In this document: positions 1 to 62,203 of the stretch, one piece after another | Layout: each line of letters opens with the position of its first letter | How positions within the stretch are numbered: the stretch's first letter is position 1 | Assembly: GCF_004364865.1 (NCBI RefSeq) | Contig: NZ_SOAU01000001.1 | Span: 3,008,001 to 3,072,000, forward strand | Reading direction: 5' to 3' | DNA length: 64,000 nt | DNA from: Ilumatobacter fluminis | GTDB lineage: Bacteria; Actinomycetota; Acidimicrobiia; Acidimicrobiales; Ilumatobacteraceae | The notes under the pieces: generated by a model | The model's database searches: none | Told to the model about the DNA's origin: nothing | What the model saw: only the letters and a program-made list of their open reading frames with translations | Translations under genes and position numbers: made by a program

Positions 1-1736
1 TTGACGATCTGCATCGTGCCGCCGCCGACGAGCTTCTTCATCTTGACGAGGCCGAGGTCGGGCTCGATGCCGGTCGTGTCGCAGTCCATCATCAGGCCGA
101 TGGTGCCGGTCGGGGCGAGCACCGACGCCTGGCTGTTGCGGACGCCGAACTCCTGGCCGTCGCGGACGGCGTTCTCCCACGCACGCTGACCGGCCGAGAG
201 CAGTTCGTCGGGGACGACCTGGTCGTTCTCGATCTGGTAGCTGGCGTCGCGGTGCATGCCGAGCACGCGGAGCATGTGCTCCTCGTTGTCGGCGAAGCCC
301 TCGAACGGGCCGAGGCGAGCGGCGGTCTTGGCCGAGGTGGCGTAGGCGTGGCCCGTCATCAGCGAGGTGAGCGAGGCGGCCCACGACCGGCCCTCGGGCG
401 AGTCGTAGGCGTGGCCGAGCGCCATGAGGAGCGCACCGAGGTTGGCGTAGCCGATACCGAGCTGGCGGAACTTGCGGCTGGTGTCGCCGATCGGCTCGGT
501 CGGGTAGTCGGCACGGCCGACCAGGATCTCCTGGGCGGTGAAGATCATCTCGATCGTGTGCATGTAGGCGTCGACGTCGAACGTGCCGTCCTCGTCGAGG
601 TACTTGAGCAGGTTGATCGAGGCCAGGTTGCACGCCGAGTTGTCGAGGTGCATGTACTCCGAGCACGGGTTCGAGCCGTTGATGCGGCCCGTGGTGTGGG
701 CGGTGTGCCACTTGTTGATCGTGGTGTCGAACTGGAGGCCGGGGTCGGCGCACTCCCACGAGGCCTGGGCGATCTGACGCCACAGGTCGCGGGCCCGGAT
801 CGTCTTCACGACCTCGCCACTGGTGACGGCCTTCAGGCCCCAGTCGGCGTCTTCGACGACGGCCTGCATGAACTCGTCGGTGACGCGCACCGAGTTGTTG
901 GCGTTCTGGTACTGGATCGAGAACGAATCGGCACCGTCGAGGTCCATGTCGAAGCCGGCGTCACGCAGCACACGCGCCTTGCGCTCCTCTTTGACCTTGC
1001 ACCAGATGAACTCCTCGACGTCGGGGTGCTCCACGTCGAGGATGACCATCTTGGCGGCGCGGCGGGTCTTGCCGCCCGACTTGATGGTGCCCGCCGAGGC
1101 GTCGGCGCCGCGCATGAAGCTGACCGGGCCGGAGGCGGTGCCACCGCCGTCGAGCGGCTCGACCGACGAGCGGATCTTCGACAGGTTGACGCCGGAGCCC
1201 GAGCCACCCTTGAAGATGACGCCCTCCTCGCGGTACCAGTTGAGGATCGAGCTCATCTTGTCGTCGACCGACAGGATGAAGCAGGCGCTGGCCTGCTGGG
1301 GCACGTCTTTCACACCGATGTTGAACCACACGGGGCTGTTGAACGCCGCCCGCTGGGTGACGAGGATGAACTTCAGCTCGTCGCTGAAGGCCTGTGCCTC
1401 GTCGGGGTCGGCGAAGTAGCCGCCCTCACGGCCCCAGGCCGTGATCGTGTCGACGACACGGTCGACGACCTGCTTGAGCGACGACTCGCGCTCGGGCGTG
1501 CCGGGGGTGCCACGGAAGTACTTCTGCGACACGATGTTGGTCGCATTGACCGACCACGTGGTCGGGAACTCGACACCGAGCTGTTCGAAGGCGACCGAGC
1601 CGTCCTTCCAGTTGGTGATGCGAGCGTCACGCAGCTCCCACACGACCTCGTCGTACGGGTCGACGCCCGGCGAGGTGAACAGCCGATTGAGACCGATCCG
1701 ACCGTTGGCGGCCTGTCGTTCCGGTGCGAGAGACAT
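1..1736 (-). CDS. nrdJ: Vitamin B12-dependent ribonucleotide reductase (class II), N-terminal 578 residues
   Basis: This gene makes deoxyribonucleotides from ribonucleotides with adenosylcobalamin as radical generator; it is cytoplasmic. It is cut by the left window edge, so the C-terminal part is missing. The start is ATG at 1736 with GGAAGG just upstream. Visible family signatures are an early NRDJ-type segment (FPTTWSVNATNIVSQKYFRG), the glycine-rich GGSGSGVNLSKIRSS stretch, and the catalytic-domain motif NPCSEYMHLDNSACNLASIN. The long leader (1737-1921) carries three ACAA/TTGT dyads that look like NrdR boxes, and nrdR itself lies 1.5 kb away on the same strand, so NrdR control is likely. 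No cobalamin riboswitch could be recognised in the leader. The family identification is secure; the regulation is inferred. Confidence 0.96.
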   Translation of the reverse strand, partial: MSLAPERQAANGRIGLNRLFTSPGVDPYDEVVWELRDARITNWKDGSVAFEQLGVEFPTTWSVNATNIVSQKYFRGTPGTPERESSLKQVVDRVVDTITAWGREGGYFADPDEAQAFSDELKFILVTQRAAFNSPVWFNIGVKDVPQQASACFILSVDDKMSSILNWYREEGVIFKGGSGSGVNLSKIRSSVEPLDGGGTASGPVSFMRGADASAGTIKSGGKTRRAAKMVILDVEHPDVEEFIWCKVKEERKARVLRDAGFDMDLDGADSFSIQYQNANNSVRVTDEFMQAVVEDADWGLKAVTSGEVVKTIRARDLWRQIAQASWECADPGLQFDTTINKWHTAHTTGRINGSNPCSEYMHLDNSACNLASINLLKYLDEDGTFDVDAYMHTIEMIFTAQEILVGRADYPTEPIGDTSRKFRQLGIGYANLGALLMALGHAYDSPEGRSWAASLTSLMTGHAYATSAKTAARLGPFEGFADNEEHMLRVLGMHRDASYQIENDQVVPDELLSAGQRAWENAVRDGQEFGVRNSQASVLAPTGTIGLMMDCDTTGIEPDLGLVKMKKLVGGGTMQIV

Positions 1737-1826
1737 GTGTGATCCTTCCGTCTGGGTGCGGGCCGGTGCTGCGTGTCCCTCCGGCCGGCAACCGGAGACG
1801 TCCGCCGTGCCGACCGGCCCACCAGT

Positions 1827-1905
1827 CGACACAACTTCATTTGTCGGGGCACAACATCTTGTTGGGAAGACCCCGTTCCTGCTCGCTCGACCACAACTGG
1901 TTGTG
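1827..1905 (-). promoter_or_regulatory. Three candidate NrdR boxes in the nrdJ leader
   Basis: Three dyads with ACAA...TTGT arms lie between the nrdJ promoter and its start codon: CGACACAACTTCATTTGTCG (1827-1846), CAACATCTTGTTG (1852-1864) and the near-perfect CACAACTGGTTGTG (1892-1905). Their centres are about 21 and 41 bp apart, roughly two and four helical turns. NrdR is known to bind tandem 16-bp palindromes of this general kind, usually about 31 bp apart; the outer two centres here are 62 bp apart. The positions downstream of the promoter would suit a roadblock type of repression. Sequence similarity to the NrdR consensus is only by eye. Confidence 0.5.
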
Positions 1906-1927
1906 CCTGTCGCGGGCAGGGCTCGGT

Positions 1928-1957
1928 ATTACACCACTGTAGTTACGAGAGTGTCAA
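1928..1957 (-). promoter_or_regulatory. Predicted sigma-70 promoter of nrdJ
   Basis: On the minus strand there is a perfect -35 hexamer TTGACA (1957-1952), an 18-bp spacer and a five-of-six -10 hexamer TGTAAT (1933-1928). Transcription would start near 1921, giving a leader of about 185 bases before nrdJ. Confidence 0.65.
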
Positions 1958-2458
1958 CGCTTGGCTCGCACTCGCGCGAAACAACTCGCTGACCAGCCGC
2001 GACGCGCCTGTTCGCGATCGCATCGCGGGCCGAAGCAGTCCCGCGCCGATCCGGCGTCGTCGGCGTCGACCGCCCGGGCGTGGGCGACTCGATCCAGGTC
2101 GTCCCGGAGGGTGATGCGATACGCAGGTTCAGGATCGTGGCTGACCCCATTCACACCGTTCGTCCGACCCCAACTCGGCCAACCTCCGAACCGTGCGGCT
2201 TCGTCATCCGCGCATCGCACCACCACCGGCACGAGGGGCAACCCTACGGGTGTCCCATTGTGGAACGGAAGGGGACAACGGTGTGAATTGCCGGTTCTTC
2301 CTGTGCACACCGCTGTGGACGACGCCGGGTTGTCCACAGCCGCCCCACCGCCCCGGCGAGCAGCAGGCGCGCGAACAGCGTGCAGCCGGGATGTCGCTTC
2401 GCTCGGCCACGGGCGCACGGCGAGGTGTGCAGCGGGTGCCGAGTGGCAAGATTCGTTC
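1958..2458. other. Intergenic region between nrdJ promoter and the RibD-like gene
   Basis: Reading frames cross this stretch in several phases but none shows recognisable protein features, so I read it as non-coding. It holds the inverted DnaA-box-like pair described separately. No clear promoter for the downstream plus-strand gene was found. Confidence 0.5.
2313..2339. repeat. Inverted pair of DnaA-box-like 9-mers (hairpin)
   Basis: CTGTGGAC (2313-2320) and GTCCACAG (2332-2339) form a perfect 8-bp inverted repeat with an 11-base loop. The right arm lies in TTGTCCACA (2330-2338), which equals the DnaA box consensus of high-GC actinobacteria; the left arm reads TCGTCCACA on the other strand, one mismatch. 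Two boxes alone do not make an origin. Confidence 0.4.
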
Positions 2459-3166
2459 GTGCCCTCCGATGCAGCACCCGCGATCCGCCGCCTCTCCCCC
2501 GACCCCGTCGGCACGACCACGGTCGTCGACGAGTACGGCGTCGATCGGCCACGGCCGGCCGACCGGCCGTGGGTCACGGTGTGCATGGTGGCGAGCCTCG
2601 ACGGCTCGATCGCACTCGACGGCGCATCCGGCGGCCTCGGCAACGCCAACGACCGGGCCGTACTGGCGACGATGCGGACCGTCGTCGACGTCGTCATCGT
2701 CGGCGCAGCGACCGCGGCCGGCGAGGGCTACGGCCCGCCGAAGCGTCCCGACCTGCGGATCGGCGTCGTGACGAACAGCGGCCGCATCGATGCGACGTCG
2801 CCACTGTTCACCTCGGGCGCCGGATTCGTGATCACGAACGAGCACGCCGAGATCCCGAGCGGCGTCGACACCCTGCGGACGGGCGGTCGCGAGGTCGATC
2901 TCGTGGCGGCCGTCGAACGCATCCCCCACCTGATCCCCGGCGTCACCCACGTCCAGGCCGAAGGCGGGCCGACGCTCAACGGGGCGCTCGCCGCCGCCGA
3001 TCTCGTCGACGAGATCTGCCTGACGGTGTCGCCCCACGTCGTCGGTGGCGATGCCGCACGGCTGACATCAGGCGCTCCGGAACGGGGCCTCGGGTACGAG
3101 CCGGCGCACGTGCTGCTCGACGACGAGGGCTATCTGTTCACCCGCTGGGTGCGGCGACGCGACTGA
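2459..3166 (+). CDS. RibD C-terminal / dihydrofolate-reductase-like pyrimidine reductase family protein
   Basis: The protein is an NAD(P)H-dependent reductase of the RibD C-terminal (DHFR-like) fold; the exact substrate cannot be read from sequence. The domain starts at about residue 40 with PWVTVCMVASLDGSIAL, the usual strand-plus-SLDG signature, and continues with a conserved glycine pair in VQAEGGPTLNGALAAADLVDE. A stand-alone reductase domain of this type occurs in actinobacteria both as riboflavin enzymes and as proteins of unknown role. GTG at 2459 was chosen because it leaves a short N-terminal extension before the fold; the Shine-Dalgarno sequence is weak, so the start is uncertain. 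It converges with nrdR, with only 24 bases between the ends. Confidence 0.8.
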   Translation: MPSDAAPAIRRLSPDPVGTTTVVDEYGVDRPRPADRPWVTVCMVASLDGSIALDGASGGLGNANDRAVLATMRTVVDVVIVGAATAAGEGYGPPKRPDLRIGVVTNSGRIDATSPLFTSGAGFVITNEHAEIPSGVDTLRTGGREVDLVAAVERIPHLIPGVTHVQAEGGPTLNGALAAADLVDEICLTVSPHVVGGDAARLTSGAPERGLGYEPAHVLLDDEGYLFTRWVRRRD

Positions 3167-24796: not shown

Positions 24797-24979
24797 CGGT
24801 TGATGTCTCGGTTGTCAGACATCGATCGACCGACCAGCGTGGTGCTCGTCGGTTGATGTCAGACATCAACCGACAGGTACGACCCCATCCGTTGCGTCGG
24901 TTGAGGTCAGACCCCAACCGACGGGTTTGCTCAAGCCTGCGACGCCGGGCATGTCGGTTGGGGTCTGACCTCGACCGAC
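24797..24979. repeat. Cluster of four palindromic elements (GTCGGTTG type)
   Basis: Three clear 27-bp palindromes lie at 24848-24874 (core GATGTCAGACATC), 24896-24922 (core GAGGTCAGACCCC) and 24953-24979 (core GGGGTCTGACCTC), each with outer arms GTCGGTTG / CGACCGAC or CAACCGAC. A degenerate fourth copy covers about 24797-24835. They fill the region between the aminotransferase stop and the ABC operon start. Where the inner arm changes, the opposite arm usually changes to match. Confidence 0.8.
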
Positions 24980-25009
24980 ATCGCCTCGACTCGCATGGGG
25001 TGCTGTGCG

Positions 25010-26368: not shown

Positions 26369-26480
26369 GAGTTATCGGTGCTTTCTGTGAACTGCCGCCG
26401 CATCCGCGCGACGGGTCAGCTCAGGCTAGACCTGCGCCGCTCCCCGGGCCAGCAACCCGCCCCACGGCACGGATCGGTTG

Positions 26481-26575
26481 GTCGGATGGGGTCTGACCCC
26501 ATCCGACCCCTCATCCGGCCAGATTGGCGGGTCGAAGCCGTCGCGCCCGTCGGATGAGGTCAGACCTCATCCGAC
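26481..26575. repeat. Pair of palindromic elements (GTCGGATG type)
   Basis: Two perfect 27-bp palindromes lie at 26481-26507 (core GGGGTCTGACCCC) and 26549-26575 (core GAGGTCAGACCTC), both with arms GTCGGAT / ATCCGAC. They separate the acyl-CoA dehydrogenase stop (26579) from the aminotransferase start (26368). Confidence 0.85.
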
Positions 26576-26578
26576 GGT

Positions 26579-27799
26579 TCAGCTGCGGGGGACGGTGTTC
26601 CAGGGGACGTCTTTGTCGACCCGTGGTTCGCCCGGCAGGCCGAGCACCTGTTCACCGAGGATGTTGCGGAGGATCTCGGTCGTGCCACCCTCGATCGAGT
26701 TGGCCCGCACGCGGAGGAACGAGTAGCGGGGCCCGTGGCCCATGCCCGACACGTCGAGGTCTTCGGGACGACGGAACGTGTAGTCGTAGTCGATCAGAGC
26801 GTCCGCGCCCATCAGGTCGATGCAGAACTCGTACAGGCCCTTGTTGAGCTCGGAGAAGGCGAGCTTCGCGATCGACATCTCGGGGCCGGGGTTGCCGGCC
26901 TTCGCGTTCTGGCCGGCGCGGCGGTTCGTGAGCCGGTTGACCTCGGCCTGCACCCAGAACTTCATGAGGGTGTCCTTGCGGACCGGCGTCTGCTCGGACG
27001 GGTCGAGTTCGTTCCAGATCGCGACGGCGTCGTTGGCCGCACCGCCCGGGCGTGACGTGGAGCCCGATCCGGCGCCGCTGCCGGTGCCGATCGCGTTGCG
27101 CTCGTTCATGAGCGTGGTGAGGCTGGCGCGCCAGCCCTCGCCGACGTCGCCGACGCGGTGGGCGTCGGGCACTCGCACGTCGGTCATGTAGACCTCGTTG
27201 AACTCGGCCTCGCCGGTGATCTGGCGCAGCGGTCGCACCTCGACACCGGGTGCCTTCATGTCGAGCGCGAAGTAGGTCATGCCCTTGTGCTTCGGGGCGT
27301 CGGGGTCGGAGCGGGTGACGAGCATGCCGAAGTCGGCGATGTGGGCCAGGGTGTTCCAGACCTTCTGGCCGTTGATGATCCACTCATCCCCGTCTCGCAC
27401 GGCGCGGGTGGCGAGACCCGCGAAGTCGGACCCGGCGCCGGGCTCGGAGAACAGCTGACACCAGACCTCTTCACCGGTGTACATGGGGCGGAGGAAGCGC
27501 TCCTTCACCTCGTCGCTGCCGTGGGTCACGATCGTCGGGCCGGCGAGCGCCATGAAGAAGGTGTGCGGCTCGGTCGGCTTTGCGCCGGCCTCCTTCAGTC
27601 GCTGGTCGACGTGCTTGTTCAGCTCGGGCTTGAGCCCCATGCCGCCGAACCCCTCCGGGAAGTGCACCCACGCCAGGCCGGCGTCGTACCGGTGTCCCCG
27701 GAACTCCTGGTTCGGGGTCGAGGCCGGCGGGTGCTCGGCGAGGAGGGCGTCGATGGCGGCATCGACACGTTCGAGGGGAGTCACAGCGGAAGTCGTCAC
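26579..27799 (-). CDS. Acyl-CoA dehydrogenase
   Basis: The 406-residue flavoenzyme oxidises an acyl-CoA to the enoyl-CoA. Family signatures are WCQLFSEPGAGSDFAGLATRA, the WIINGQKVWNTLAHIADFGMLVTR segment and the C-terminal SIEGGTTEILRNILGEQVLGLP. The usual catalytic glutamate position lies in the mid C-terminal domain but cannot be fixed by eye. GTG at 27799 begins VTTSAVTPLERVDAA and gives a standard length. It is the last gene before tRNA-His and is not in an operon with beta-oxidation genes; the nearest enoyl-CoA hydratase is 12 kb away. Confidence 0.9.
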   Translation of the reverse strand: MTTSAVTPLERVDAAIDALLAEHPPASTPNQEFRGHRYDAGLAWVHFPEGFGGMGLKPELNKHVDQRLKEAGAKPTEPHTFFMALAGPTIVTHGSDEVKERFLRPMYTGEEVWCQLFSEPGAGSDFAGLATRAVRDGDEWIINGQKVWNTLAHIADFGMLVTRSDPDAPKHKGMTYFALDMKAPGVEVRPLRQITGEAEFNEVYMTDVRVPDAHRVGDVGEGWRASLTTLMNERNAIGTGSGAGSGSTSRPGGAANDAVAIWNELDPSEQTPVRKDTLMKFWVQAEVNRLTNRRAGQNAKAGNPGPEMSIAKLAFSELNKGLYEFCIDLMGADALIDYDYTFRRPEDLDVSGMGHGPRYSFLRVRANSIEGGTTEILRNILGEQVLGLPGEPRVDKDVPWNTVPRS

Positions 27800-27926: not shown

Positions 27927-28001
27927 GGTGGCCGTAGCTCAGCTGGTGGTAGCGCCAGGTTGTGATCCTGGAGGTCGGGGGTTCAAGTCCCCTCGGTCAC
28001 C
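27927..28001 (+). tRNA. tRNA-His (GTG)
   Basis: The cloverleaf folds with acceptor stem GTGGCCG (27928-27934) and CGGTCAC (27994-28000). The anticodon stem is CCAGG/CCTGG with loop TTGTGAT, giving anticodon GTG at 27962-27964. The T arm is GGGGG-TTCAAGT-CCCCT. G27927 faces discriminator C28001, as required for the extra G-1 of tRNA-His. CCA is not encoded. Confidence 0.95.
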
Positions 28002-28009
28002 CTTCGAGA

Positions 28010-28069: not shown

Positions 28070-28134
28070 GGACACCCAGGCGATTCAATCCACCACGGCT
28101 CCACCGGTGGACGCCCAGGCGATTCAATCCACCA
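28070..28134. repeat. Two 26-bp direct repeats
   Basis: The segments 28070-28095 and 28109-28134 match at 25 of 26 positions; both contain CCCAGGCGATTCAATCCACC. They are separated by 13 bases that include the palindrome CCACCGGTGG. With only two copies and so short a spacer this is not a CRISPR array. Between 28135 and the next gene at 28308 I see only a ribosome binding site. Confidence 0.6.
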
Positions 28135-28307
28135 GGAGTCCCGACCCCGGTCCGGCGACGGAGCGTTCGCGGTCGGCCGGACGGGCACGTGTTTCGATCG
28201 CACCCTCAGGATTTCGTCTTGCCCTTCCCGTACGAGCGTTCGCTGTGCGACGATGTCGGCCAGTGCGACGAGCCGCAGGGGCTCGGCCGCGACCTGGGAG
28301 GGTTGGG

Positions 28308-30641
28308 ATGCGATCGACGATTCGACGATCGAGGTTCGGGCGAGCTGCCGCGGCGGTCACCGCCGTGGCGCTGCTGGCGTCCGCGTGCAGCGGTGACGAC
28401 GACGATGACGAGCCGTCGGACGACTCGGCCGTCGACGAACCGTCCGACGACGACGGAGACGACGGTGACGATGCCGCCGACGACGGCGACGACGATGCGC
28501 CCGCACTCGACGGCGACGGGCTGACGATCGGATTCATCCAGCCCGAGGTCGGCCTGTTCGACCTGTTGGGCGCGGCCCAGGAGGGCGGCCTCGCCCTCGC
28601 AGCGGACGACATCGCCGCCGGCGGCGGCGTGCTCGGCGGCGAACTCACGATCGTGGCCGAACGGCCCACCCCCGAGCGCGACGTCACCGCCGTGTTCGAG
28701 TCGATGGTGGCCGACACCAGCCCGCTGATCGTCGGCCCGGCCACCTCGGCCGACGCCCGCGCGATCATCCCGCTGCTCGGCAGCAACGACGCCGTCGTGT
28801 GCGGAGCGAGCGTCACGGCGCCGGGCCTGACGACGCTCGAGGGTGCCGACGGACGCTTCCTGCGCACCACGTTCGACGACAACATCGTGGCGATCCACAC
28901 GTTCGACCGGGTCCGCGAGTACACGGCCGACGTGATCGGTCGCCAGCCGAAGGTCACCATCGTGTCCCGCGGCGACGAGTACGGCGACGGACTCTCCAAC
29001 ACGCTGGCCGGCATGCTCGGCCTCGTCGGCATCGAGGTCACCGTCGAGCGGTACAACCCCGCCGATGTGTTGATGACGGGTCTCGGCGAGCAGGTCGCCG
29101 CCACGGCGGCCGATCTCTACGTGATGATCGCGCTCGAGGAGGGCCCGCGCCTGGCCGGCGTCATGCAGGAGGCGGGCGTCGCCCCCGACACCATGCTCGG
29201 CCTCGACGGGTTGGCCACACCCCGACTCGGTGAGAAGGCCGTTCCGCAAGACCCGGCGGCGCTCGACGGAGCGACCGTCATCGGTGCCACCGGCCCGGTG
29301 TCGTTCCTCACCCGACTGCTCGACCAGCAGGCTGCACAGGGCGAGGTGCTCTACGGCGCGCAGGCGTACGACTGTGCGATCTCGATGGCGCTCGCCGTCG
29401 AGGCGGCCGGCAGCACCGACCCCGCCGAGGTCTCGGCCGCGATGCGGACGGTGACCGGCGGTGACGGAACCGTGTGCACCACCTACGCCGACTGCCGGGC
29501 GTTGCTCGCCGACGGTCTCGACATCGACTACCAAGGTCCGAGCGGACCGATCGACTTCGCCGAGGACGGCGAGCCCGGCGGCGGTCGCTTCATCACCGCC
29601 CGCGACTCGTCGGGGACGCTGCACATCGTCGCCGACCTGACGATCTCGCTCGAGGAGATCCGTGACCGTGTTGCGCCGCAGCTCGCCGGCTTCATCGCCG
29701 ACATGCAGACTGCGCTGACCGAGCTCGGGTACTACGCCGGTCCGATCGACGGCCAGATGAACGACGAGTTCGCGGCCGCCATCGCTGCGTTCCAGACCGA
29801 CAACGGCCTCGAGCCGACCGGCGAACTCGACGCGGCGACGATCGCTGCGATCCAGCAGGCGCTCGGCGAGAACCCGATCCTGACGGCGACGATCACCGAG
29901 GTCCAGCAGTTGCTCACCGAACTCGGCTACTACACCGGCCCCATCGACGGCCTGTGGAGCGAAGCGCTGTCCGATGCGATCAAGGCGTTCCAGACCGACC
30001 TCGGCGTCGAGCCGACCGGCATCCTCGATGCGGCGACGCTGCAGGCGATCTACCAGGCGGGTGCGAACTCGGGCGGCGACCAGCCGCCAGCGAGCACGAC
30101 CACCACCACGATCGGCACCGGCACGACCATTCCGGTCGACACGACCACCACCACGGCGGCGCCGACCACGACGGCACCGCCCGCCACCACGACGACGAGC
30201 GCCGCTCCGACCACCACGACGACGGTGCCGGTCCCCGCTGACTCGATCCTCGGTGTCCTGATCGCCAACCCGCAGTTCAGCGAACTGGTGGCCCTGCTCG
30301 ACACGCCGGGCCTCGAAGCGGTCAAGGGTCAGCTGTCCGATCCGTCCGCCGCCGCCACCCTGATGGCGCCGAACAACGATGCCCTTCCCGACGACGCGGC
30401 GACCGCGCCGACCGACGACCTGATCGATCTGCTGTCGTTCCACGTGGTGACGACGGTGCTCGATCCGCTCGCCGATGGCGACTATGCGACGGCGCTGTCG
30501 GGCCAGGACCTGACCGTCGCCGGCACGACGGTGAGCAACGCCGACGCGAGTGTGACGGCGAACATCCTGGGCGACGCGCTGCCGACCGCAGCGGGTGTGG
30601 TGTGGGAGATCGACACCCTGCTCGCGCCGCCGCAGCCCTGA
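28308..30641 (+). CDS. Lipoprotein fusing a type I substrate-binding domain, two peptidoglycan-binding repeats and a fasciclin domain
   Basis: The 777-residue protein starts at ATG 28308 with GGGAGGG upstream. A lipoprotein signal ends LLASAC with Cys27, then comes an Asp-rich linker (29-70). Residues about 73-455 are a Leu/Ile/Val-type periplasmic-binding fold (GLTIGFIQPEVG, FESMVADTSPLIVGPATSADARAI, VTIVSRGDEYGDGLSNTLAG). Two PG_binding_1 repeats follow (about 460-525 and 528-585), each with TELGYY-GPIDG and an AFQTD-LEPTG core. A Thr/Pro/Ala linker (593-643) leads to a fasciclin-like domain (645-775). The protein would be anchored on the outer face of the membrane and reach into the wall. 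No transporter permease genes are near, so it may be a receptor, scaffold or sensor rather than an importer part. The combination is unusual. Confidence 0.88.
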   Translation: MRSTIRRSRFGRAAAAVTAVALLASACSGDDDDDEPSDDSAVDEPSDDDGDDGDDAADDGDDDAPALDGDGLTIGFIQPEVGLFDLLGAAQEGGLALAADDIAAGGGVLGGELTIVAERPTPERDVTAVFESMVADTSPLIVGPATSADARAIIPLLGSNDAVVCGASVTAPGLTTLEGADGRFLRTTFDDNIVAIHTFDRVREYTADVIGRQPKVTIVSRGDEYGDGLSNTLAGMLGLVGIEVTVERYNPADVLMTGLGEQVAATAADLYVMIALEEGPRLAGVMQEAGVAPDTMLGLDGLATPRLGEKAVPQDPAALDGATVIGATGPVSFLTRLLDQQAAQGEVLYGAQAYDCAISMALAVEAAGSTDPAEVSAAMRTVTGGDGTVCTTYADCRALLADGLDIDYQGPSGPIDFAEDGEPGGGRFITARDSSGTLHIVADLTISLEEIRDRVAPQLAGFIADMQTALTELGYYAGPIDGQMNDEFAAAIAAFQTDNGLEPTGELDAATIAAIQQALGENPILTATITEVQQLLTELGYYTGPIDGLWSEALSDAIKAFQTDLGVEPTGILDAATLQAIYQAGANSGGDQPPASTTTTTIGTGTTIPVDTTTTTAAPTTTAPPATTTTSAAPTTTTTVPVPADSILGVLIANPQFSELVALLDTPGLEAVKGQLSDPSAAATLMAPNNDALPDDAATAPTDDLIDLLSFHVVTTVLDPLADGDYATALSGQDLTVAGTTVSNADASVTANILGDALPTAAGVVWEIDTLLAPPQP

Positions 30642-30712: not shown

Positions 30713-30787
30713 CCGCCTCTAGCTCAACGGCAGAGCAGTGGACTCTTAATCCATTGGTTCTGGGTTCGAATCCCAGGGGGCGGACCA
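30713..30787 (+). tRNA. tRNA-Lys (CTT)
   Basis: The acceptor stem is CCGCCTC (30713-30719) with GGGGCGG (30777-30783), including one T-G pair. The anticodon loop CTCTTAA gives anticodon CTT at 30745-30747. The T arm is CTGGG-TTCGAAT-CCCAG. The discriminator is A30784 and CCA is encoded (30785-30787), unlike the tRNA-His nearby. Confidence 0.95.
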
Positions 30788-30828: not shown

Positions 30829-30943
30829 ACGAATGGGGTCGGATACGTTTCGTCGGAACAGAAGGGGTCAGGCACCTTCTGTTCGGAGCGATGCCTGACC
30901 ACCGACGCTGCGGCGAACAGAAGGTGCCTGACCCCTTCTGTAC
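30829..30943. repeat. Palindromic elements upstream of nei: inverted doublet plus a related unit
   Basis: Two 29-bp elements with arms GAACAGAAGG/CCTTCTGTTC lie at 30856-30884 (core GGGGTCAGGCACC) and 30915-30943 (core GGTGCCTGACCCC), so the asymmetric core is inverted between them. Just upstream, 30829-30858 resembles one arm of the inverted repeat at 37208-37293 (shared GGTCGGAT/GTGTCGGAT and CGTT-CGTCG). The second copy ends 10 bases before the nei start codon. Confidence 0.8.
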
Positions 30944-31763: not shown

Positions 31764-31847
31764 ACAGAAGGGGTCAGGCACCTTCTGTTCACGGGAGGTC
31801 GGCGACCCGGCCACGATTGAACAGAAGGTGCCTGACCCCTTCTGTTC
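31762..31847. repeat. Inverted doublet of 29-bp palindromic elements after nei
   Basis: Elements at 31762-31790 (core GGGGTCAGGCACC) and 31819-31847 (core GGTGCCTGACCCC) have perfect GAACAGAAGG/CCTTCTGTTC arms. They point in opposite directions around a 28-bp spacer. The first overlaps the nei stop codon. Confidence 0.85.
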
Positions 31848-32824: not shown

Positions 32825-32956
32825 CGGAAGGGGTCAGGCACCTTCTGGCCATTCACTGAACATGGGCCAGACCTGGAGCGCCAGAAGGTGCCTGACCCCT
32901 TCCGGTCGACTCGGGCCAACTCTGGAGCGCCAGAAGGTGCCTGACCCCCTCTGTTC
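32825..32956. repeat. Three palindromic elements between corA and the TetR gene
   Basis: Elements lie at 32825-32848 (core GGGGTCAGGCACC), 32881-32905 and 32930-32956 (both core GGTGCCTGACCCC). The last two share the preceding flank (GGGCCA...CTGGAGCGCCAG), so this half of the doublet seems tandemly duplicated. The third copy abuts the TetR operator. Confidence 0.8.
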
Positions 32957-38630: not shown

Positions 38631-38762
38631 GTCGGATGAGGTCAGACCCCAACCGACCGTTGTGCGACGTCGAGCCGCCTGCCAGAAGGGGTCAGGCACC
38701 TTCTGGCTCGCAGGCGCTGCGCTCTCCGAATCGTCTGCCAGAAGGTGCCTGACCCCTTCTGG
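38631..38762. repeat. Mixed cluster: one GTCGGATG-type element plus an inverted CCAGAAGG doublet
   Basis: The element at 38631-38657 is a hybrid with left arm GTCGGATGAG and right arm CCCCAACCGAC. The inverted doublet has elements at 38682-38706 (core GGGGTCAGGCACC) and 38738-38762 (core GGTGCCTGACCCC) with perfect CCAGAAGG/CCTTCTGG arms. The last copy ends two bases before the patatin stop codon. This site links the two sub-families. Confidence 0.85.
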
Positions 38763-62133: not shown

Positions 62134-62203
62134 CAGGCACCTTCTGTGCACCCGGGTCAGGTACCCCGAGCGAGCTGAACAGAAGGTGCCTGACCCCTTC
62201 TGT

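Follow-up and report, generated by a model that had tools for sequence, protein, structure and literature searches.

What is a transport-type binding domain doing in a lipoprotein that also carries peptidoglycan-binding and fasciclin domains? The question is raised by an open reading frame of 777 aa without an internal stop (28308-30641, + strand) in the window, the 64,000-nucleotide stretch of DNA analyzed here, which covers bases 3008001-3072000 of a 4,775,416-base contig. We approached it through the parts of the protein, its distribution, its genomic context, its putative ligand pocket, and its relatives.

Architecture and distribution of the fused lipoprotein

An earlier note on this DNA had read the frame as a lipobox, an acidic linker, a binding domain, two PG_binding_1 repeats, a Thr-rich linker, and a fasciclin domain, and this order is confirmed by the sequence and by Pfam (Table 1). 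In the domain search proposed there, Peripla_BP_6 (PF13458) scores 58.8 bits against a cut-off of 31.7 over residues 72-387, PG_binding_1 (PF01471) scores 111.3 bits against 23 over two stretches, and Fasciclin (PF02469) scores 32.8 bits against 22 over residues 655-774; all matches therefore lie above their Pfam cut-offs. The end of the Peripla_BP_6 domain was set at about residue 445, beyond the Pfam stretch. The PG_binding_1 pair forms an in-register 168-nt direct repeat with 73% DNA identity, its two units lying 198 nt apart. The Fasciclin match is the weakest of the 11 fasciclin matches in the genome. The lipoprotein call was made by eye on the sequence L-A-S-A preceding Cys27, which we take to be a lipobox. 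A Kyte-Doolittle scan of the 777-aa protein found no window of 19 residues above 1.6; the two top windows lie at 646 (1.51, at the start of the fasciclin domain) and 10 (1.50, in the signal peptide). Single-sequence structure prediction gave a mean pLDDT of 37.5 and was of no use.

Table 1. Features of the fused lipoprotein gene and its surroundings (window coordinates), with a related lipoprotein in its own locus coordinates
Feature	Position	Strand	Basis or content
Whole gene, 777-aa lipoprotein	28308..30641	+	ORF, Pfam; start and lipobox match nearest ortholog
Signal peptide with putative lipobox LASA-C27	28308..28388	+	sequence; Cys27 invariant in 8/8 copies
Acidic linker, Asp at 21/42 residues	28389..28514	+	composition count
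Type I periplasmic-binding domain (Peripla_BP_6)	28521..29642	+	Pfam residues 72-387; alignment to 1z15
PG_binding_1 repeat 1	29694..29861	+	Pfam; DNA direct repeat
PG_binding_1 repeat 2	29892..30059	+	Pfam; DNA direct repeat
Thr/Pro linker, 25 Thr and 9 Pro per 54 residues	30075..30236	+	composition
Fasciclin (FAS1) domain, residues 655-774, divergent	30270..30629	+	Pfam
Flanking tRNA-His (context)	27928..28002	+	tRNA scan; also in L063
Flanking tRNA-Lys (context)	30713..30787	+	tRNA scan; also in L063
L076 lipoprotein (genome G290)	1030-2478		N-terminus without Pfam match, PG_binding_1 x2, Thr/Pro linker, fasciclin

Rare as it is, the architecture recurs in several genomes of the taxonomic family. 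One match spans both the binding domain and the PG_binding repeats in 8 of 221 family genomes, which represent 5 of 27 genera (the window genome, G003 (72%), G215, G201, G191, G133, G193, and G109). These eight matches have E values of 1e-102 or better; the next best, at 4.6e-40, covers the binding domain alone. The genome searches of family, class, and order scored the best four to seven candidates per genome, and they returned no fused copy outside the family in overlapping samples of 198 and 395 genomes of the class and 148 of the order, the 395 having been searched with residues 450-777 only. A contig search beyond the class returned 11 loci from other phyla, nearly all of them matched in the PG_binding part alone. 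Literature searches on the domain combination or the genus, which covered few subscription journals, returned no title describing such a protein. The architecture had been put forward as unusual, and its rarity stands, but it is not restricted to one genome.

One of the seven orthologs is 71-72% identical to the window protein, and the other six are 38-41% identical. Seven of the eight copies are complete, the G109 copy being truncated by a contig end beyond its second PG_binding_1, and the domain order is identical in all seven. Pfam finds PG_binding_1 in every ortholog and Fasciclin in all six complete ones (32.4 to 96.1 bits); Peripla_BP_6 exceeds its cut-off in six of the seven orthologs, and L038 is listed under ANF_receptor only. 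Compared with the five distant complete orthologs, the window protein is 35-40% identical in the binding domain, 48-61% in the PG_binding part, and 30-33% in the fasciclin domain.

The fused binding domains form one clade, with an SH-aLRT of 100 in a first tree (48 named loci, eight of them dropped for lack of a usable binding-domain match) and values of 100/99 in a careful tree (29 of 59 rows, chosen by us). Long stems are seen for the fused clade and for the window protein with its nearest relative. A further comparison within the binding-domain lineage omitted 5 of its 19 loci, whose matches were split, as well as L032, L027, and L085. Binding-domain relatives that are not fused occur commonly in the class; most of them are open frames of ~440-510 aa.

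Genomic context and the putative ligand pocket

The lipoprotein gene is the only one between tRNA-His and tRNA-Lys. Eight neighboring genes were scanned, encoding an acyl-CoA dehydrogenase, a class-III aminotransferase, an ABC ATPase, an Fpg/Nei-type glycosylase, CorA, a TetR regulator, and two ABC_membrane/ABC_tran proteins; among these eight, no likely partner, no GlnX-type transmembrane protein, and no PknG was seen. Across the ortholog contexts, no conserved neighbor of a signaling-partner type was seen. A conserved operon partner was considered and rejected: one neighbor is shared by the three genus g24 copies only, and the other contexts differ. By eye, that neighbor is MFS-like. Conserved synteny was likewise rejected, the tRNA-His/tRNA-Lys slot recurring in one (G003) of seven tRNA-scanned ortholog stretches, of which L041 is only 3.3 kb long.

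Several repeats were observed around the gene. Two 33-nt direct repeats with 88% identity occupy 28070-28141, between tRNA-His and the lipoprotein gene. The 23-mer CAGAAGGGGTCAGGCACCTTCTG occurs in ten copies with 0 or 1 mismatch (30859-30940, 31765-31844, 32825-32953, 38683-38761, and 62180-62202), and shuffled sequences give an expectation of 0. The copies lie mostly in inverted pairs ~57 nt apart, which we take to resemble REP elements. A family of near-palindromic elements of the type GTCGGTTGAGGTCAGACCCCAACCGAC lies at 24847-24988 and 26480-26584, flanking the aminotransferase gene on both sides.

The claim that no permease lies near the gene holds: a LivHM-type permease profile, built from 15 of the 18 PF02653 matches of the genome, found no match in the 64-kb window, and the nearest PF02653 match lies ~210 kb from the gene. 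Six of the eight Peripla_BP_6 matches of this genome are within 2.7 kb of a PF02653 match, leaving the window gene and one other as orphans. The same difference is seen between loci. A permease is nearby at none of seven wall-fused loci (the window and six orthologs, with the contig of L063 ending 0.2 kb downstream of the gene), whereas a permease pair is present at 10 of 13 loci of other relatives, whose neighborhoods span 12.7-14 kb each. These 13 loci were chosen by us, 11 from genome-search hits and two from the window's own genome. The three without a permease are L133; L140, which lies at a contig end and is an SBP_bac_3 fusion; and L141, a weak relative. The contrast has a Fisher p of 0.003, a value that takes no account of the shared origin of the fused loci; because they form one clade, the seven loci are not independent and probably represent one evolutionary event seen seven times.

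The ligand pocket was mapped by alignment to the structure 1z15 of the Leu/Ile/Val-binding protein (LIVBP), the position of Phe276 being aligned by hand past the end of the printed alignment. L032 and L027, which have long branches, were excluded from the pocket tallies and from the permutation test. By this alignment, most LIVBP ligand-contact positions are kept in the fused family. At the position of Glu226, a ligand contact of LIVBP, seven of the eight fused domains have Asp and one has Glu, and no variation is seen at the positions of Ser79, Thr102, and Tyr150. These last three, with Tyr202, are among the 11 contacts listed for LivJ from docking (PMC6983066). The Tyr202 position is Tyr in five fused domains, Phe in one, and Leu in the window protein and its nearest relative; in the other domains, it is Phe in 38 of 38. 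The pocket of the window copy is thus changed at this position, which speaks against a simple reading that the ligand is the same. In a permutation test on the fused clade, the 12 pocket columns exceed randomly drawn columns in conservation (p 0.01); for the 38 other domains, none of 20,000 permutations was as conserved. A subset of four polar pocket residues gives p 0.0017, but it was picked after conservation had been seen, and the 12-column test is the fairer one.

Related fusions and the C-terminal domains

A binding domain of the same lineage occurs in a different setting in L160 (positions 31-2613 of that locus, in genome G317 from another family of the order), an 860-aa Ser/Thr kinase with Peripla_BP_6. 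Its layout comprises a Pkinase domain at 51-297, a Pro-rich linker, one strongly hydrophobic stretch at ~468-488, and Peripla_BP_6 at 509-804, and no permease is present in the 13 kb around it. The kinase and the membrane-like stretch replace the lipid anchor, the PG_binding repeats, and the fasciclin domain of the window protein, and the architecture points to a use other than transport. In the tree, a 100/100 branch sets off a group made up of the L160 binding domain, the fused clade, and six unfused relatives. Within this group, L160 pairs with the fused clade at 72/94; the AU test does not reject a topology that joins it to those six relatives (p-AU 0.364). L160 may tentatively be regarded as the sister of the fused clade. 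Judged by its architecture, this single example suggests that a close relative of the binding domain forms the external portion of a receptor kinase.

Other fusions of binding domains were encountered. L021 (positions 481-2640 of that locus, in genome G006) is lipoprotein-like and joins SBP_bac_3 to Peripla_BP_6; no permease was seen in the 12.7 kb examined, which end at a contig end. In L159 (positions 2-2521 of that locus, in genome G600), a single open frame beginning at a contig end encodes a pair of Peripla_BP_6 domains. In L162 (G045), a 789-aa frame on the - strand, an extra stretch, which by eye resembles a Bmp/PnrA-type binding protein, precedes a binding domain of the window lineage.

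The C-terminal part has counterparts as well. Two PG_binding repeats, a Thr/Pro linker, and a fasciclin domain also occur in two genomes of genus g86, from another acidimicrobial family, in L076 (G290) and L073 (G279). These proteins have the same C-terminal order as the window protein and are 40-43% identical to it over ~320 aa, but the N-terminal part of L076 matches no Pfam profile, Peripla_BP_6 included; that of L073 is cut at a contig end. The fused PG_binding pairs group weakly (SH-aLRT 81) with those of a second lipoprotein type, which has an N-terminus of this unmatched kind and of which L076 and L073 are the two examples with a fasciclin domain. The fasciclin domains of the two types do not group in a small tree, which compared the fused proteins with two proteins of the other type and the window's own genome only, and we therefore claim no shared mobile cassette of PG_binding and fasciclin domains.

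Possible roles and comparison with known systems

Our preferred reading, to which we assign a probability of roughly 45%, is that a transport-type amino-acid binding protein may have been turned into a wall-anchored receptor, with loss of its own permease. Export and lipidation at Cys27, for which the motif is present, would anchor the N-terminus on the outer side of the membrane. The Peripla_BP_6 domain, on its flexible acidic linker, would close around an amino-acid-like ligand. The two PG_binding_1 repeats would grip peptidoglycan, so that the protein would span membrane and wall, and the Thr/Pro linker would extend the fasciclin domain outward, where it would bind another molecule at the surface. 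Ligand-driven closure would then be passed to a partner encoded elsewhere, as proposed for GlnH with GlnX/PknG. The earlier note had suggested a wall-anchored sensor or scaffold, and this possible role is strengthened by the mostly kept pocket, by the lost permease neighbors, and by the presence of a closely related binding domain in a kinase. More speculatively, and in our view rather unlikely as a whole, the protein could be a receptor bridging membrane, wall, and exterior. Its flytrap would read an amino-acid-like signal, which could be a free amino acid or stem from wall turnover, the PG_binding_1 and fasciclin domains would tie that signal to wall state or surface contact, and the same lineage would have been built onto a Ser/Thr kinase as a one-piece receptor kinase.

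Among the alternatives, the protein could still serve transport, capturing an amino acid at the wall for a LivHM permease encoded elsewhere, with the wall and fasciclin domains acting only in retention. That most of the pocket is kept agrees with such a role, as do the unfused relatives that adjoin permeases and those of the 18 PF02653 matches that have no Peripla_BP_6 beside them (e.g., 1592134 and 4113185). However, no fused locus has a permease nearby, a wall tether would presumably hinder docking, and the genome also has a stand-alone relative (1257675) with a permease pair 2.3 kb away; we regard continued transport as improbable, though still worth weighing. A ligand-free scaffold for protein-protein contacts, serving envelope building or adhesion, seems slightly more doubtful. 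It follows the proposal for LpqZ and FecB, orphan SBP-like lipoproteins described as interacting with arabinosyltransferases, and the long stems that the trees show for the fused clade and the window pair, together with the changed Tyr202 position, would fit it. LpqZ and FecB are reported to be conserved at their partner surface, and working SBPs around the pocket (PMC12802301). In the fused family, by contrast, the pocket is among the conserved parts, which favors a ligand. The joined domains might lastly be an artefact of misassembly or of an over-read frame in a high-GC window with 174 open frames of at least 150 aa. Seven orthologs from other genomes, with the same order and 38-71% identity, refute this explanation, to which we attach next to no probability.

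Binding proteins that have lost their transporters are an acknowledged source of bacterial receptors, although few have been sampled. The fused family is a defined clade that has retained most of the pocket, has no permease nearby, and has gained wall-binding and adhesion-type domains, and it comes with unfused permease-side relatives and a kinase-fused relative for comparison. A comparison of ligands across this clade would thus test directly how a transport protein is converted to a sensor.

Orphan binding-protein lipoproteins are already known from mycobacteria. GlnH is a protein of the family 3 type (SBP_bac_3) and is not known to us to carry wall or fasciclin domains. It is described as an SBP-type lipoprotein of mycobacteria and corynebacteria that is proposed to act through GlnX on PknG (PMC6069109, PMC9769921), and in mycobacteria it is proposed to be an amino-acid sensor (PMC6069109). 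Under the receptor reading preferred here, GlnH resembles the window protein as an actinobacterial binding-protein lipoprotein used for sensing, and it differs in having a proposed transmembrane partner. LpqZ and FecB are also SBP-type lipoproteins without a transporter, but they are related to other SBPs (ProX and FecB/SirA), and the cited passages mention no wall or fasciclin domains in them (PMC12802301). MPT70 (1nyo) is the only solved structure matched by the FAS1 region of the window protein alone, and the match is weak (E 0.23). Mpb70/Mpb83 (MPT70/MPT83), in which to our knowledge there are no binding-protein or PG_binding domains, share the FAS1 domain with the window protein. They are bacterial FAS1 proteins. 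FAS1 domains are described as having varied ligands, and a review cautions that the term adhesion may mislead for walled cells (PMC6032426). With LivJ/LIVBP (structures 4gnr and 1z15), the window protein shares the fold family, by sequence, and the main pocket positions; it differs from them in lacking a permease near its gene, in having Leu at the Tyr202 position, and in adding two PG_binding_1 repeats and a fasciclin domain.
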